From: a virus | Length of the DNA: 50,611 nucleotides | Strand: one strand, 5' to 3' | Virus record (IMG/VR): IMGVR_UViG_3300042691_008783 | Span: 1 to 50,611 of that record | In this document: one piece after another, positions 24,488 to 35,612 of the stretch | Position numbering within the stretch: the stretch's first letter is position 1 | Layout: every line of letters begins with the position of its first letter | Position numbers and translations under genes: made by a program | Notes under the pieces: model-generated | Databases searched by the model: none | Seen by the model: the letters and a program-made list of their open reading frames with translations, nothing else | Told to the model about the DNA's origin: nothing

Positions 24488-24712
24488 TTAAAACGGACAG
24501 TCTGGTTTAGCTATCTTAACAAGCGACTGTCTTAAGCTTGTTAGTGTGTGAAACTTACCCTTCAGTACATAACCTATAGATCCACCTTTTGTTATTTGCT
24601 TTAGTATCCTTCCTGTCTTTTTGTTTACTAAGAAGTTGTACTTCTCAACAAATACAAAATCGTGATCGAAACTAAGTGTGTATTTGCAAGTAAAAACTAA
24701 GTTAATACGCAT
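24488..24712 (-). CDS. Conserved small phage protein (74 aa)
   Basis: The pattern YNFLVNKKTGRILKQITKGG, GYVLKGKFHTLTSLR and an end in KPDCPF is a recognisable small family of Bacteroidota phages. It is basic and beta-rich, perhaps nucleic-acid binding. It is the last ordinary gene before the cassette-like array begins at about 24.73 kb. Confidence 0.7.
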   Translation of the reverse strand: MRINLVFTCKYTLSFDHDFVFVEKYNFLVNKKTGRILKQITKGGSIGYVLKGKFHTLTSLRQSLVKIAKPDCPF

Positions 24713-24730: not shown

Positions 24731-24753
24731 GTGCGCTTATACACTAGTTATGC
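24731..24753 (-). repeat. attC-like half-site S1 at the end of the 24748 gene
   Basis: On the minus strand the stop codon of the 24748-25110 gene lies inside GCATAAC, followed by TAGTGTATAAGCGCAC. This arm resembles site E (26468-26491), where GCTAAC is followed by GGCGTATAAGAG. No matching second arm is seen locally, so it looks like a half-site at the array edge. Confidence 0.45.
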
Positions 24754-25110
24754 AACATTTGACGACAACTCCAATTCGACACCTGTTAAAGCAAAGTATA
24801 GATTTTGAAGTTGATGAACGTATTTAATAGATTCTTCTAAAATAGCCCAAGAATTAAAATAAACTCTACCTTCTTTATGATACTCTAATTTATTTGCTAT
24901 TTGTATTGTTAATTTTTCTTTGTCAAATTGGCTACTTACTTTTGATTTCTTAAAACCAAACTTTAACAACCATTTTTCAGTTAATTCAATAGGCTCAATC
25001 CGTTCGGATTCGTAAATCGTATTGCTAACTTGTATTAATGAACCTCCAATTGATTCTACATCACCTTGTTTAACTAAATTTCCAATTCTTAATTCGTTTG
25101 ATTTTATCAT
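24748..25110 (-). CDS. Cassette-borne conserved protein, ELRIGNLV family (120 aa)
   Basis: Begins MIKSNELRIGNLVKQGDVES and includes IEPIELTEKWLLKFGFKK and a VHQLQNLYFALTGVELEL end. This small family is common in Bacteroidota phages and mobile DNA. The gene is AT-richer than its neighbours. It is preceded by the complete attC-like palindrome at 25144-25222, and its stop codon lies within half-site S1. Confidence 0.75.
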   Translation of the reverse strand: MIKSNELRIGNLVKQGDVESIGGSLIQVSNTIYESERIEPIELTEKWLLKFGFKKSKVSSQFDKEKLTIQIANKLEYHKEGRVYFNSWAILEESIKYVHQLQNLYFALTGVELELSSNVA

Positions 25111-25143
25111 TTTACTTAATTTTAATTGTTAAAAAAATACGTC

Positions 25144-25222
25144 GCATAACAGGTGTTTAGCAAATCGGCTCGACAAGTACGCTATGCTCAAGCCGTTTCG
25201 CTAAGCACCAAAACGTTATAAG
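25144..25222 (-). repeat. Complete attC-like imperfect palindrome (site B)
   Basis: Outer ends GCATAAC and GTTATAAG enclose paired arms GGTGTTTAGC / GCTAAGCACC (9 of 10 pair) and CGGCT / AGCCG (perfect), with a 20-base central loop. This is the layout of an integron attC site: outer R boxes, then paired L arms with short unpaired spacers. It lies between the stop of the 25272 gene and the start of the 24748 gene. A second perfect palindrome, GTTATAAG / CTTATAAC (25215-25222 and 25248-25255), adjoins it. Confidence 0.55.
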
Positions 25223-25256
25223 CAAGTGTGCGAAAATGCCCACCAGACTTATAACA

Positions 25257-25704
25257 CGGGTTAAGCAAAATTTAAACCTTGCTTCCCGCCTGTAACTCAA
25301 TTAACTTATCACACAATTCATCAATAGTCCAATCGCCTTCTTCAATTCCTTCGTGGCTAAAATTTATTGCGGTGTATTCAAATGGATTGTAACCACTTTC
25401 AAGTCCAAGTTCTTCAATTACTTTTATTGCCTCTTCGCTTTCTGAAACCATTGTTAACTCTCCATCATCTAATGGTCCGTAAACTTCGGAGTGCTTTCCT
25501 AAAACTTCACCCCAATAAATTTCAATTCCATTTTCTAAAAGAACTTTTACCTTTTCCTTTTCGGCAATAAAAACACCAGTTAATTGTCCTTGTCTTCCGC
25601 AATTAAATTTTAATCTGTAAATCGCTTTCATTTTGTTATTTGTTTTTATATTGTTAATGAGGTATTAACCCACCTCACATAAGGTTTAAACTTCGCTTAG
25701 CCCG
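25257..25704. repeat. Long inverted repeat enclosing the 25272 gene
   Basis: The 22-base arms at 25257-25278 and 25683-25704 pair at 19 of 22 positions. The gene at 25272-25631 lies between them, with its stop codon inside the left arm. GTTAGC follows the right arm at 25710-25715. The layout is that of a stem with a gene in the loop, or of terminal inverted repeats. Confidence 0.6.
25272..25631 (-). CDS. Cassette-borne hypothetical protein (119 aa)
   Basis: MKAIYRLKFNCGRQGQLTGV start, IYWGEVLGKHSEVYGPLDD core and an acidic C-terminal half (EEGDWTIDELCDKLIEL). I recognise the CGRQG...GEVLGKHSEVYG pattern as a small family spread in Bacteroidota mobile DNA; function unknown. The gene is single, AT-rich and enclosed by a 22-base inverted repeat. 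Confidence 0.75.
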   Translation of the reverse strand: MKAIYRLKFNCGRQGQLTGVFIAEKEKVKVLLENGIEIYWGEVLGKHSEVYGPLDDGELTMVSESEEAIKVIEELGLESGYNPFEYTAINFSHEGIEEGDWTIDELCDKLIELQAGSKV

Positions 25705-25709
25705 AAAAC

Positions 25710-25728
25710 GTTAGCAGATATTTTAAAA
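25710..25728 (-). repeat. attC-like R box after the 25729 gene (site C)
   Basis: On the minus strand, right after the TAG of the 25729 gene, CTGCTAACG leads into TTTTCGGGCTAAGCGAAG. The same order (TAACG, then T-rich, then GGCTTAGCGAA-like) occurs at site B and site D. Its arm pairs with 25257-25278 across the 25272 gene. Confidence 0.45.
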
Positions 25729-26130
25729 CTACTCCGCTCGATAGTTGAAGCCATAATCTTTCCAATGCTCACCAACGACAACATCTTCAAAAGATTTGAC
25801 TTTAGTTACAATCCATTTTTCAGAATCTTTACCCATAAAATCAACAGTCTTGATACCCATTACAAAATGACCATTGCCCCAGTTTTCTTCTGATACTAAT
25901 TTATTGTTGAATTCGTCCGATACAACTACCGTAAGACCGTTATTTGTACATATACCCCATTCATCAATAACGGATGTAATGACAATATCGCCAACAAATA
26001 AATCTTTACCAGTAAAATCTTTTAAAGCAGTTGGTTCGCCTATTTTACCAAGTTTACACTCGCCTGAATAAACAAAAACATCTGCTAACATCGGTTTGGC
26101 AAAATTGCCGTTTTGTTCTTTGTTTGACAT
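25729..26130 (-). CDS. Cassette-borne hypothetical protein (133 aa)
   Basis: Begins MSNKEQNGNFAKPMLADVFV. A DLFVGDIVITSVIDEW segment and GLTVVVSDEFNNKLV suggest a small beta-barrel like YopX-type phage proteins. The C-terminus is Lys/Trp-rich. It lies between site D and site C and is AT-rich. No operon overlap with its neighbours, unlike genes outside the array. Confidence 0.7.
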   Translation of the reverse strand: MSNKEQNGNFAKPMLADVFVYSGECKLGKIGEPTALKDFTGKDLFVGDIVITSVIDEWGICTNNGLTVVVSDEFNNKLVSEENWGNGHFVMGIKTVDFMGKDSEKWIVTKVKSFEDVVVGEHWKDYGFNYRAE

Positions 26131-26170
26131 TTTATCTTAATTTTAAAATTTTGTACTACTATTGAAGTTT

Positions 26171-26230
26171 TGTGTTCGGCAACTTCGCCAAGCCGAGAAC
26201 CGTTAGCAAACATTAAAACGATTTGCTAAC
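26171..26230 (-). repeat. attC-like palindromic site D
   Basis: GTTAGCAAA (26202-26210) and TTTGCTAAC (26222-26230) form a perfect 9-bp inverted repeat. Beside it, the minus strand reads TAACGGTTCTCGGCTTGGCG then AAGTTGCCGAACAC, with GTTC-GGC / GCC-GAGAAC as imperfect arms. It lies between the stop of the 26246 gene and the start of the 25729 gene. Confidence 0.5.
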
Positions 26231-26231
26231 A

Positions 26232-26480
26232 GCGTATAAGAGAAATTAAGGGGCTTTGCTTTCTCCCATATAATTTTTGTAAACATCTTCAATTTCTTTC
26301 ATTGCTCCGAAAACATAATCATCAGGAAAAACTCGATGTATATAACTTTGATCATCTTTTTCCAATGCTCTAAAAGCCCTTCTCATTTCAATTAATGTTA
26401 CTACACTTATTTCTACCTTGTCATTATACAAATCTCTACTCATAATCTCTTAAATTAGTTCATTAACTTCTCTTATACGC
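26232..26480. repeat. Long inverted repeat enclosing the 26246 gene
   Basis: A perfect 13-base inverted repeat (GCGTATAAGAGAA at 26232-26244 and its complement at 26468-26480) brackets the gene at 26246-26443. Outside each arm lies GTTAGC or GCTAAC (26225-26230 and 26486-26491). This is the same gene-in-the-loop layout as around the 25272 gene. Confidence 0.6.
26246..26443 (-). CDS. Small cassette-borne hypothetical protein (65 aa)
   Basis: MSRDLYNDKVEISVVTLIEM start and a helical body with RRAFRALEKDD, ending YKNYMGESKAP. Enclosed between the perfect 13-base inverted repeats. No family known. The start is supported by the A/T-rich upstream stretch usual here. Confidence 0.65.
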   Translation of the reverse strand: MSRDLYNDKVEISVVTLIEMRRAFRALEKDDQSYIHRVFPDDYVFGAMKEIEDVYKNYMGESKAP

Positions 26481-26486
26481 CTATCG

Positions 26487-26723
26487 TTAGCGTCCAATTT
26501 GCCCATTCCATTCACATAGAATATTAAGACATGATCTATAATCAAGTCCATCATCTTGTAATTTATTGCAACCGCATTCAGGGCAAACCGATACGCTAAC
26601 AGTAGGTTTGTGTAATTTGCCTTCAAGGAAAGAAATATACTCTTGAACAACAGCAGGCGACTTTCTTATCTCCATTCTAAGTGTCTCCGTTGCAATACCT
26701 TTTTTATCTAAGAAATGTGCCAT
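26487..26723 (-). CDS. Zinc-finger-like protein ending in an attC-like R box (78 aa)
   Basis: Start at ATG 26723; an in-frame GTG lies two codons upstream. N-terminal helices are followed by C47-P-E-C50-G-C52, then C65 and C70 in SCLNILCEWNG, a likely zinc site as in Lar/zinc-ribbon phage proteins. The TAA stop lies inside GCTAAC of site E. That is the usual position of a cassette gene's stop relative to attC. Confidence 0.7.
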   Translation of the reverse strand: MAHFLDKKGIATETLRMEIRKSPAVVQEYISFLEGKLHKPTVSVSVCPECGCNKLQDDGLDYRSCLNILCEWNGQIGR

Positions 26724-26728
26724 ATCCA

Positions 26729-26923
26729 CTAATTTAAAATTGTGTCCTCCAGTATGATATCACATTCTGACTGGCTGACTGATGTTACACTAAAAACTCC
26801 CGTCGGATCTAACTCATACAAGTACTCACCTAACGCAAGTACTGCATCACCGACATCGTTACACTCTAACGTGACGTAGAACTCATTCGGTCCGTATCTT
26901 ACTTGACATATCCAGTATCTCAT
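26729..26923 (-). CDS. Small hypothetical protein (64 aa)
   Basis: Begins MRYWICQVRYGPNEFYVTLE and continues DVGDAVLALGEYL, a compact alpha/beta sequence. Its stop is 5 bases before the start of the zinc-finger gene. It is the first gene upstream of the cassette-like array. Function unknown. Confidence 0.65.
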   Translation of the reverse strand: MRYWICQVRYGPNEFYVTLECNDVGDAVLALGEYLYELDPTGVFSVTSVSQSECDIILEDTILN

Positions 26924-27255: not shown

Positions 27256-27373
27256 TAGTCAGGACAGGATTCGAACCTGTAATAAGAGAGGTAACTCACC
27301 GCTGATGGGACATACACCATCACCCTCTGTATTGCCATACCACGTTGCGTCTAACCAATTCCGCCACCTGACT
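27256..27373 (-). tRNA. Class II (Leu-like) tRNA gene, 118 nt, anticodon not resolvable
   Basis: Acceptor AGTCAGG / CCTGACT is a perfect 7-bp stem with discriminator A. The start TGGCGGAATTGGTTAGACGC is the typical D arm of tRNA-Leu. The T arm ACAGG-TTCGAAT-CCTGT is perfect. The middle is about 30 nt longer than usual. It has the hairpin TGATGG / CCATCA with an 8-base loop and a variable-arm-like GGTGAGTTACC. An additional hairpin, GTATGGCAATAC, sits where the anticodon arm is expected. Confidence 0.6.
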
Positions 27374-34037: not shown

Positions 34038-35612
34038 ATGATACCAAAACATGTATTTTTAGGTACTGAAGGTCACGAAAAGTTACGTTCAGGCATCAAA
34101 AAGTTAGCTGGAGCCGTAAAATCGACTTTAGGTCCATCAGGACGCCCAGTGATACTTGAAGACGAACACTCGGTCGGAGGTAAGCGCATTACGAAGGACG
34201 GAGTGACAGTAGCTAAGGCTATAAACCTGTACGACCCAGTGGAAAACATCGCGGTCAGCATCATGAAGGAGGCGTCAGCACAGACAGCCTTAATGGCAGG
34301 CGACGGTACGACAACGAGTATTGTACTAACGGAGGCTATCCTTGATGCTTCAGAGAACAACTTGAAGGGTAACGTCACTACAATTGTTAAGCACATCAAG
34401 GACTACGCAGAGCAAGTTGACGAGTACTTGAAGAAAAAATCGAAGAAAGTAACCAAGGGTAGACTGCAGAGTGTTGCTACCATCTCGGCAAACAACGATC
34501 CGAAACTAGGGAAGATGATTGCTGACATGTTCAAGAAAGTAAAGGTTGTATCTATTGAGAACTCACAGACAGAAGAGACGTACACGGAGATCATCGATGG
34601 TATGAAGTTCGACAGAGGCTACACGACGTACCACATGGTAAACAACCACGACAGAGAGACGTGCGAGCTTGACAGACCGTATATATTACTGACGGACATG
34701 GAGATTACAGACCTTACTGGATCCTTGGAGGAAGTAATTCGTGTATGCATCCAGCAAGGAAGACCGCTACTAATCGTAGGTCGTATGTCACCGAAGGCAA
34801 TGGCTACGTTCGCGTACAACATTCAGAAGGGTACTATTAAAGGGTGTCATGTGCTACCTCCTGACTTTGGGTACAGACAGAAGGAGATGATGCGAGACTT
34901 AGCTGTAGTGATGGATGCTAACTACTATAGTGAAGAGACAGGAGACGGTATGCATAACATCACGCCATCAGGACTTGGTGTAGCGAAGAGAGTAGTTATC
35001 TCGAAAGACAGGACTATTATCTACAGAGACGAGAACTTACCACAGGAACCACTTCAGGAGCGATTAGCGGAGTTGAAGGCGCGAAAGGTAAACAATCCAA
35101 GAGATAAGAAGGACAGAGACGAGAGAGTGGCTAACATTGAGGGCGGTATAGGTATTATCCATGTAGGGGCAGAGTCACCTATCGAGCAGAAGGAGAAGTA
35201 CGACCGTGTAGACGATGCCGTTAGAGCTGTTTCGGCTGCATTAGAGGAAGGAATTCTAGCTGGAGGAGGTATATCATTACTAGATGCAATAGAGTTCATT
35301 GGAGACGATAATTCAACAGAAGAAGCTACGGCAGCACTTGATATACTAAGAAATGCGCTGTACTCACCATTTGATCAGATCATGCGAAACGCAGGACTTG
35401 AGTCAAAAGAAGTGGCTAGTAATATGGTACAGCATCCATACGGCTACGGCTACGACCTGAAGAACCACAAGTACGGAGACATGATCGAGATGGGTGTAAT
35501 TGACCCGACACTTGTAACACGTTCGGCACTAAAGAATGCAGTCAGTGTTGCAACGACGATACTATCAAGTGAGGCTATTGTAACTAACATGAGAGAAGGT
35601 GATGCGAGCTAA
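34038..35612 (+). CDS. Phage-encoded GroEL-type chaperonin (524 aa)
   Basis: Group I chaperonin: LGPSGRPVIL at 31-40, KDGVTVAKAI at 53-62, the ATP site GDGTTT at 88-93 and the DAVRAVSAALEEGILAGGG region before residue 411. Length is near the usual 540. The Gly-Met tail is missing; it ends MREGDAS. The apical region (about 180-370) is the most divergent. It would fold virion proteins, perhaps the long fibers or capsid. The GroES-like gene overlaps its end. Confidence 0.9.
   Translation: MIPKHVFLGTEGHEKLRSGIKKLAGAVKSTLGPSGRPVILEDEHSVGGKRITKDGVTVAKAINLYDPVENIAVSIMKEASAQTALMAGDGTTTSIVLTEAILDASENNLKGNVTTIVKHIKDYAEQVDEYLKKKSKKVTKGRLQSVATISANNDPKLGKMIADMFKKVKVVSIENSQTEETYTEIIDGMKFDRGYTTYHMVNNHDRETCELDRPYILLTDMEITDLTGSLEEVIRVCIQQGRPLLIVGRMSPKAMATFAYNIQKGTIKGCHVLPPDFGYRQKEMMRDLAVVMDANYYSEETGDGMHNITPSGLGVAKRVVISKDRTIIYRDENLPQEPLQERLAELKARKVNNPRDKKDRDERVANIEGGIGIIHVGAESPIEQKEKYDRVDDAVRAVSAALEEGILAGGGISLLDAIEFIGDDNSTEEATAALDILRNALYSPFDQIMRNAGLESKEVASNMVQHPYGYGYDLKNHKYGDMIEMGVIDPTLVTRSALKNAVSVATTILSSEAIVTNMREGDAS

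Follow-up and report, generated by a model that had tools for sequence, protein, structure and literature searches.

Introduction

Capture of gene cassettes by integrons is thought to require an insert in the integrase IntI that reads the extrahelical bases of a folded attC site. Sedentary chromosomal integrons such as those of Vibrio comprise attC, attI and IntI; canonical attC is cut in its R' box only, and its reported length ranges from 57 to 142 nt (PMC2727003). In Bacteroidetes proper, the IntegronFinder 2.0 survey recorded a complete integron only in Salinibacter, a single case (PMC9024848). Clusters of attC sites in phages are already known as CALINs, one of their carriers being Polaribacter phage P12002L, and the text of Qi et al. 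2023 reports that five of six phage sites tested recombined with IntI1 (PMC9892861).

The locus described here resembles these phage CALINs in its integrase-less clustering of attC-like sites, and its family shares with them methyltransferase cassettes and some Bacteroidota hosts; the main text of that report, however, describes no uniform ORF inversion, genes within hairpins, exact gain and loss between sister phages or linked Xer-like recombinase in Bacteroidota phages. With the Vibrio integrons it shares the cassette unit, crossover at one box and the matching of box-flanking letters within a cassette, but the array-linked recombinase lacks the insert of ~42 aa, the sites lack the canonical bulged bases and the phage genes are inverted. 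The linked Xer-like recombinase, the inverted phage cassettes with start codons in the site, the genes inside hairpins and the exact exchange between sister phages appear to be new; open-licence papers yielded no literature on these sites in Flavobacteriales, and an earlier description is possible.

Results

A cassette array on the minus strand of a phage genome

The window, that is, the whole stretch of DNA analysed, is the 50.6-kb IMG/VR virus record IMGVR_UViG_3300042691_008783, and the array lies on its minus strand. A Bacteroidota host is probable, since the terminase relatives known from an annotated phage collection have hosts in Flavobacterium, Cellulophaga, Tenacibaculum and Maribacter. 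Judged by eye, the operon style differs in the array region, where the genes stand as single units between palindromes. We read positions 24747-26621 (Table 1) as an integrase-less integron-type cassette array, in which a tyrosine recombinase from outside would exchange cassettes at TAACG|TT on a folded single strand, and we put the probability of this reading at about 0.85.

Table 1. Features of the cassette array and its flanks in the window.
Feature	Positions	Strand	Basis	Remarks
Conserved phage flank gene, downstream of array	24488-24712	-		homologue in sibling phage L462, 6952-7176
Array end, GCATAAC box	24747-24753	-		contains stop of 24748 gene; phage flank follows
Cassette gene, 120 aa	24748-25110	-		phrog_10066; end of array
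S4, attC-like site, 76 nt	25145-25220	-	model R2, fold	site B of original prediction
S3-cassette mini-body	25221-25249	-		with boxes gives GTTATAAG...CTTATAAC
S3, attC-like site	25250-25715	-	arm pairing	arms 400 nt apart, gene in loop; left arm is site C
Gene within S3 hairpin, 119 aa	25272-25631	-		phrog_5848; relatives in many phages
Cassette gene, 133 aa	25729-26130	-		first codons are S2 loop and right arm
S2, attC-like site, 124 nt	26084-26207	-	model R2, fold	left arm is site D
S1-cassette mini-body	26208-26224	-		with boxes gives GTTAGCAAA...TTTGCTAAC
S1, attC-like site	26225-26491	-	inverted-repeat arms	gene in loop
Gene within S1 hairpin, 65 aa	26246-26443	-		
First array gene, 80 aa	26487-26729	-		part shared with sibling phage; stop in GCTAAC box
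S0, right half of a site	26597-26621	-	by eye	GGCAAATTACACAAACCTAC TGTTA; left half absent; sibling phage has S0 too
Conserved phage flank gene, upstream of array	26729-26923	-		

The palindromes B, C and D of the original prediction are all retained, B as a complete hairpin and the other two as single arms of larger sites, and the arm order noticed as common to them is that of arm family D1. The placing of two stop codons, those of the 26487 and 24748 genes, inside GCTAAC and GCATAAC is likewise confirmed. On the gene-sense strand, the single-stranded DNA fold of S4 has an energy of -17.0 kcal/mol (z -5.2), and that of the compact S2 has a z of -3.1. In S1 and S3 a gene stands between arms several hundred bases apart; the S3 arms are 24 nt long and 88% complementary, the partner arm lying past the gene. 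The array's left edge (S0) is only half a site, which counts against the reading given above. At the opposite end the sibling phage has GCTAAC|TA, and the GCATAAC|TA edge of the array is a candidate, and only a candidate, for attI. A Pfam search of the window's cassette genes returned no match.

The sites belong to a family that behaves like attC

The covariance model R2, the second to be made, was built without sequences from the window or P12002L. In the window it recovers S2 with 119.5 bits (E 1.2e-23) and S4 with 49.2 bits (E 6.6e-8), and it finds nothing else there except the opposite strand of S2. In an alignment of 25 sites both sides vary in 18 of 25 pairs, with a covariation of 0.31 against 0.12 after shuffling. 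S2 also shares 72% identity, over 124 nt, with a site located between two methyltransferase genes in Muminvirus, a Flavobacterium phage, and Rfam has no match for the palindromes. By these sequence tests the palindromes are attC-like cassette recombination sites, beyond what chance would give.

The sites have the form of attC, a folded imperfect palindrome with R and L boxes and an asymmetric unpaired spacer, which is one-sided (5 nt vs 1). The extrahelical bases of the canonical L'' arm were looked for and not seen in 25 sites, whose arms are equal in length, and we therefore call the sites attC-like; a C-A mismatch occurs in an arm of 15 of the 25. Because R2 is silent on the canonical attC of the Vibrio and TJE1 phages, we claim no identity with canonical attC at the sequence level, and the assignment is kept at attC-like for sites that behave like attC in sequence tests.

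More than 119 viral contigs carry the strict left-arm motif, as do more than 120 contigs from genomes, most of those with a name belonging to Bacteroidota; R2 sites are present in 54 of 148 Bacteroidota genomes compared with 1 of 101 from another phylum. A genome labelled as a Limnohabitans MAG (L264, G247), supposedly a betaproteobacterium, holds 59 sites of the family, probably on mis-binned Bacteroidota contigs. In P12002L (L007) R2 detects only a weak, different site (28.9 bits) and misses many hairpins at 31-41 kb that have another arm family (TATATG-type) and the same box geometry; by their sequence these would be a second class of site in flavobacterial phages. Five loci (L111, L125, L134, L166 and L103) have sites with gene-free loops of ~190-200 nt and a distinct arm type.

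Cassettes are gained and lost exactly at one box

The original prediction was staked on gene order varying among related phages, and both a sibling phage and the Muminvirus isolates show that the order is not fixed: cassettes turn over at the boxes. The sibling, L462 (second copy L389), has flanks 85-94% identical to those of the window, and the array that they enclose is different throughout. Homology ends at window position 26580 and restarts at 24589, and all cassettes between differ; the sibling's genes (253, 81, 70, 215, 124 and 50 aa) come with other sites of the same family. In L390 and L391 homologues of both flank genes lie ~360 bp apart with no site between them. Among ~55 other loci of relatives scanned, sites occur, besides the sibling's second copy, only in L397 and L424, and a scan of 20 related-terminase phages found sites in none.

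The Muminvirus isolates resolve such events to the nucleotide. Exactly 506 bp, corresponding to one cassette, is present in mumin6-1 and absent from mumin6-3, and its gene belongs to the same family, phrog_10066, as the last cassette gene of the window. Filifjonk9-1 is longer than mumin6-1 by 1581 bp, and the junctions of both pairs lie within a shared TAACGTT; in tooticki6-1 and mymlan6-1, too, the breaks are at TAACG. Gain and loss in Muminvirus is thus always within the TAACG|TT box, as is expected of integron cassettes, whole units coming and going by crossover at G|TT of the R' box. The arrays of the family also consist, as expected, of single-gene units, each with a site in fixed relation to it.

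Box-flanking letters and gene orientation

A circular intermediate would require the letters outside a cassette's end box to match the start of that cassette and not the linear partner. Full complementarity over four letters outside the boxes is found within the same cassette in 78% of phage and 86% of bacterial cases, compared with 9% and 16% for the linear partner and 7% at random; a true Vibrio integron in a phage, taken as control, gives 14/14 within the cassette and 1/15 across the site. R'' thus complements the beginning of the cassette to which it belongs, as in the circular form, and the rule is visible in the window as GTTAGCAGATGTTTT...AAAATATCTGCTAAC around the gene at 25729-26130.

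Given that junctions occur only at the TAACG end and that attC is cut only in R', the TAACG end corresponds to R', and our model has to be reverse-complemented to give the canonical orientation. Genes of the bacterial arrays agree with the canonical site orientation in 80 of 91 clear cases, whereas those of the phage arrays are inverted relative to the site in 148 of 148. Several genes of the window and of Muminvirus begin in the site loop and read through the right arm. A first reading in which phage genes run with the site was dropped once the chromosomal arrays and the crossover box were considered. Nearly all of the 11 bacterial exceptions come from L279 and L281, two loci with the appearance of binned phage contigs. 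These two, binned as Staskawiczbacteria and 'uncultured bacterium', hold phage-oriented arrays and are probably phage contigs; the genome of L281 has a recombinase frame with TGA stops, and TGA may be recoded.

Genes inside the hairpin

A scan for arm pairs with long loops was noisy until filtered for TAACG/TGTTA, after which 22 pairs were found in phage array loci and 1 in 452 kb of control sequence. Ten of the stronger pairs, nine of them in viral loci and one in L279, have an ORF of 61 aa or more between their arms, and these ORFs share one direction; S1 and S3 are the examples in the window. Their length far exceeds the range reported for attC. At 9 of 9 gene-in-loop sites for which the next site is known, the body left outside the hairpin (the mini-body) measures 20-61 nt, and no ordinary site (0/171) has a body below 70 nt. 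These tiny outside bodies imply that a cassette is one gene, placed either outside or inside its hairpin.

An Xer-like recombinase adjoins related arrays

The original prediction saw no integrase gene, and a PF00589 search for tyrosine recombinases in the 50.6-kb record indeed gives none. Canonical IntI above the TIGR02249 cut-off is encoded in 0 of 39 motif-bearing genomes, and no complete integron, with an insert-bearing IntI in the same genome, was seen. The best sub-threshold matches to the IntI model in these genomes led us to XerA-like proteins at or near NF040815. Sites lie around 17 of 20 recombinases of this type (56 matches in 286 kb); the 320 kb surrounding 20 recombinases of Xer type from the same genomes contains none. 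These figures differ from prevalence because genomes were picked for the motif, recombinase regions for best score and bacterial loci as motif carriers. Of 40 viral contigs with arrays, 11 code for a tyrosine recombinase; the best eight are of the NF040815 kind, seven with a site within ~1 kb.

In an alignment to the Vibrio IntI structure 2a3v, residues 247-268 of the linked protein take the place of residues 176-239 of IntI, and the protein therefore lacks ~40-42 residues of the integron-integrase insert. It scores best against XerA-type proteins (NF040815; 4a8e, 5hxy). In a tree, the array-linked enzymes stand apart from the Xer controls (support 100/99), the phage enzymes forming two separate clades, and the multi-copy hairpin sites of the array-linked enzymes in arrays differ from the one dif of XerA or XerC-D. 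From its sequence the array enzyme is likely an Xer-like tyrosine recombinase and not a canonical IntI. Two individual loci may be mentioned here. In L358 (8187-10790) the recombinase is directly followed by a nucleotidyltransferase-like (CD-NTase-type) first cassette, and in L328 (569-698 and 802-2767) a short tyrosine recombinase is preceded by a site and followed by an IS91-like transposase frame.

Discussion

Taking the site family, the cassette unit, its exact gain and loss, the crossover box, the inversion and the in-loop genes as the sequences present them, we propose the following scheme. The unit of the array would be one gene with one hairpin site, the gene lying either outside the hairpin (S2, S4) or wholly within it (S1, S3). 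A tyrosine recombinase coming from elsewhere, either the host or a co-infecting phage, would recognise the single strand folded in vivo and swap cassettes at the TAACG|TT box, which would correspond to the R' box (CGTTA on the other strand). Phage cassettes would be turned round relative to chromosomal arrays, with genes against the attC orientation, and their start codons would consequently often fall in the attC loop. The benefit may be a stock of accessory and anti-restriction genes that can be exchanged. The original prediction of an integrase-less attC cluster in a phage therefore stands as to the integron-like array and its gain and loss at boxes, but it missed the genes inside hairpins, the inversion of the ORFs and the non-IntI recombinase.

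It had also suggested that the sites were gained from a host integron. The corresponding alternative, a canonical array captured from the host chromosome and mobilised by canonical IntI, is the one that survives best, given that the same overall rules operate as in integrons and that IntI1 can use phage attC sites according to the text of Qi et al. (PMC9892861); we nevertheless hold it to be very unlikely, as the phage ORFs are inverted relative to chromosomal cassettes, the cassette contents differ, canonical IntI above the cut-off is missing from the 39 motif-bearing genomes and the linked recombinase has no IntI insert. Because of the inversion and the differing gene contents, a pool of cassettes borne by phages is, from sequence comparison, the likelier source.

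A reading of the palindromes as terminators or RNA hairpins between small morons, with the differences among phages produced by homologous or illegitimate recombination in short repeats, is very unlikely in our judgement. In phages the strand of the hairpin has mRNA sense, the shared TAACGTT would serve as microhomology, and attC sites are themselves thought to be weak terminators, as the text of Qi et al. puts it (PMC9892861). Such recombination does not account for breaks that always use one of two boxes, for box letters that agree inside a cassette but disagree across a site, a pattern shared with a true Vibrio integron, or for the same sites adjoining a dedicated recombinase clade. Weakest of all, a transposase-moved small transposon for each gene, with terminal inverted repeats (GTTAGC...GCTAAC), would explain the matching inverted ends on every cassette but is scarcely credible for units that lack a transposase, follow one another strictly head to tail, a structured hairpin separating each from the next, are gained and lost seamlessly at one box and have no noticed target-site duplication.

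Beyond the preferred reading of the window as an outside-mobilised cassette array, we lean towards a broader proposal: Bacteroidota and their phages may share an integron lineage without canonical IntI, in which an insert-less XerA-like recombinase acts on hairpins with one-sided spacers. Its phage branch would have its own recombinase clades, inverted cassettes, start codons in the hairpin, in-loop genes and rapid exchange of anti-restriction and accessory genes. As the linked recombinase lacks the IntI insert, the evolution of single-strand hairpin recombination becomes directly testable.

The 138 phage cassette genes include 14 N6/N4 and 5 C5 methyltransferases, together with MT-A70, YopX and glycosyltransferase domains; the bacterial cassettes carry streptomycin adenylyltransferase, restriction, Fic, AbiLi-like and oligonucleotide-cyclase genes. 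Since the presence or absence of one methyltransferase in Muminvirus has been associated with how efficiently the phage plates on strain LMO6 (PMC7077304), cassette exchange may explain changes of host range, in a system that is tractable in the laboratory.

Elsewhere in the window, a tRNA-like match (RF00005, 37.4 bits) whose middle contains a long additional segment lies at 27256-27373 on the minus strand; ARAGORN calls no tRNA there, and the element is possibly a tRNA with an insertion. On the plus strand, positions 34038-35612 encode a phage GroEL-like chaperonin (phrog_5725, E 1.5e-124).
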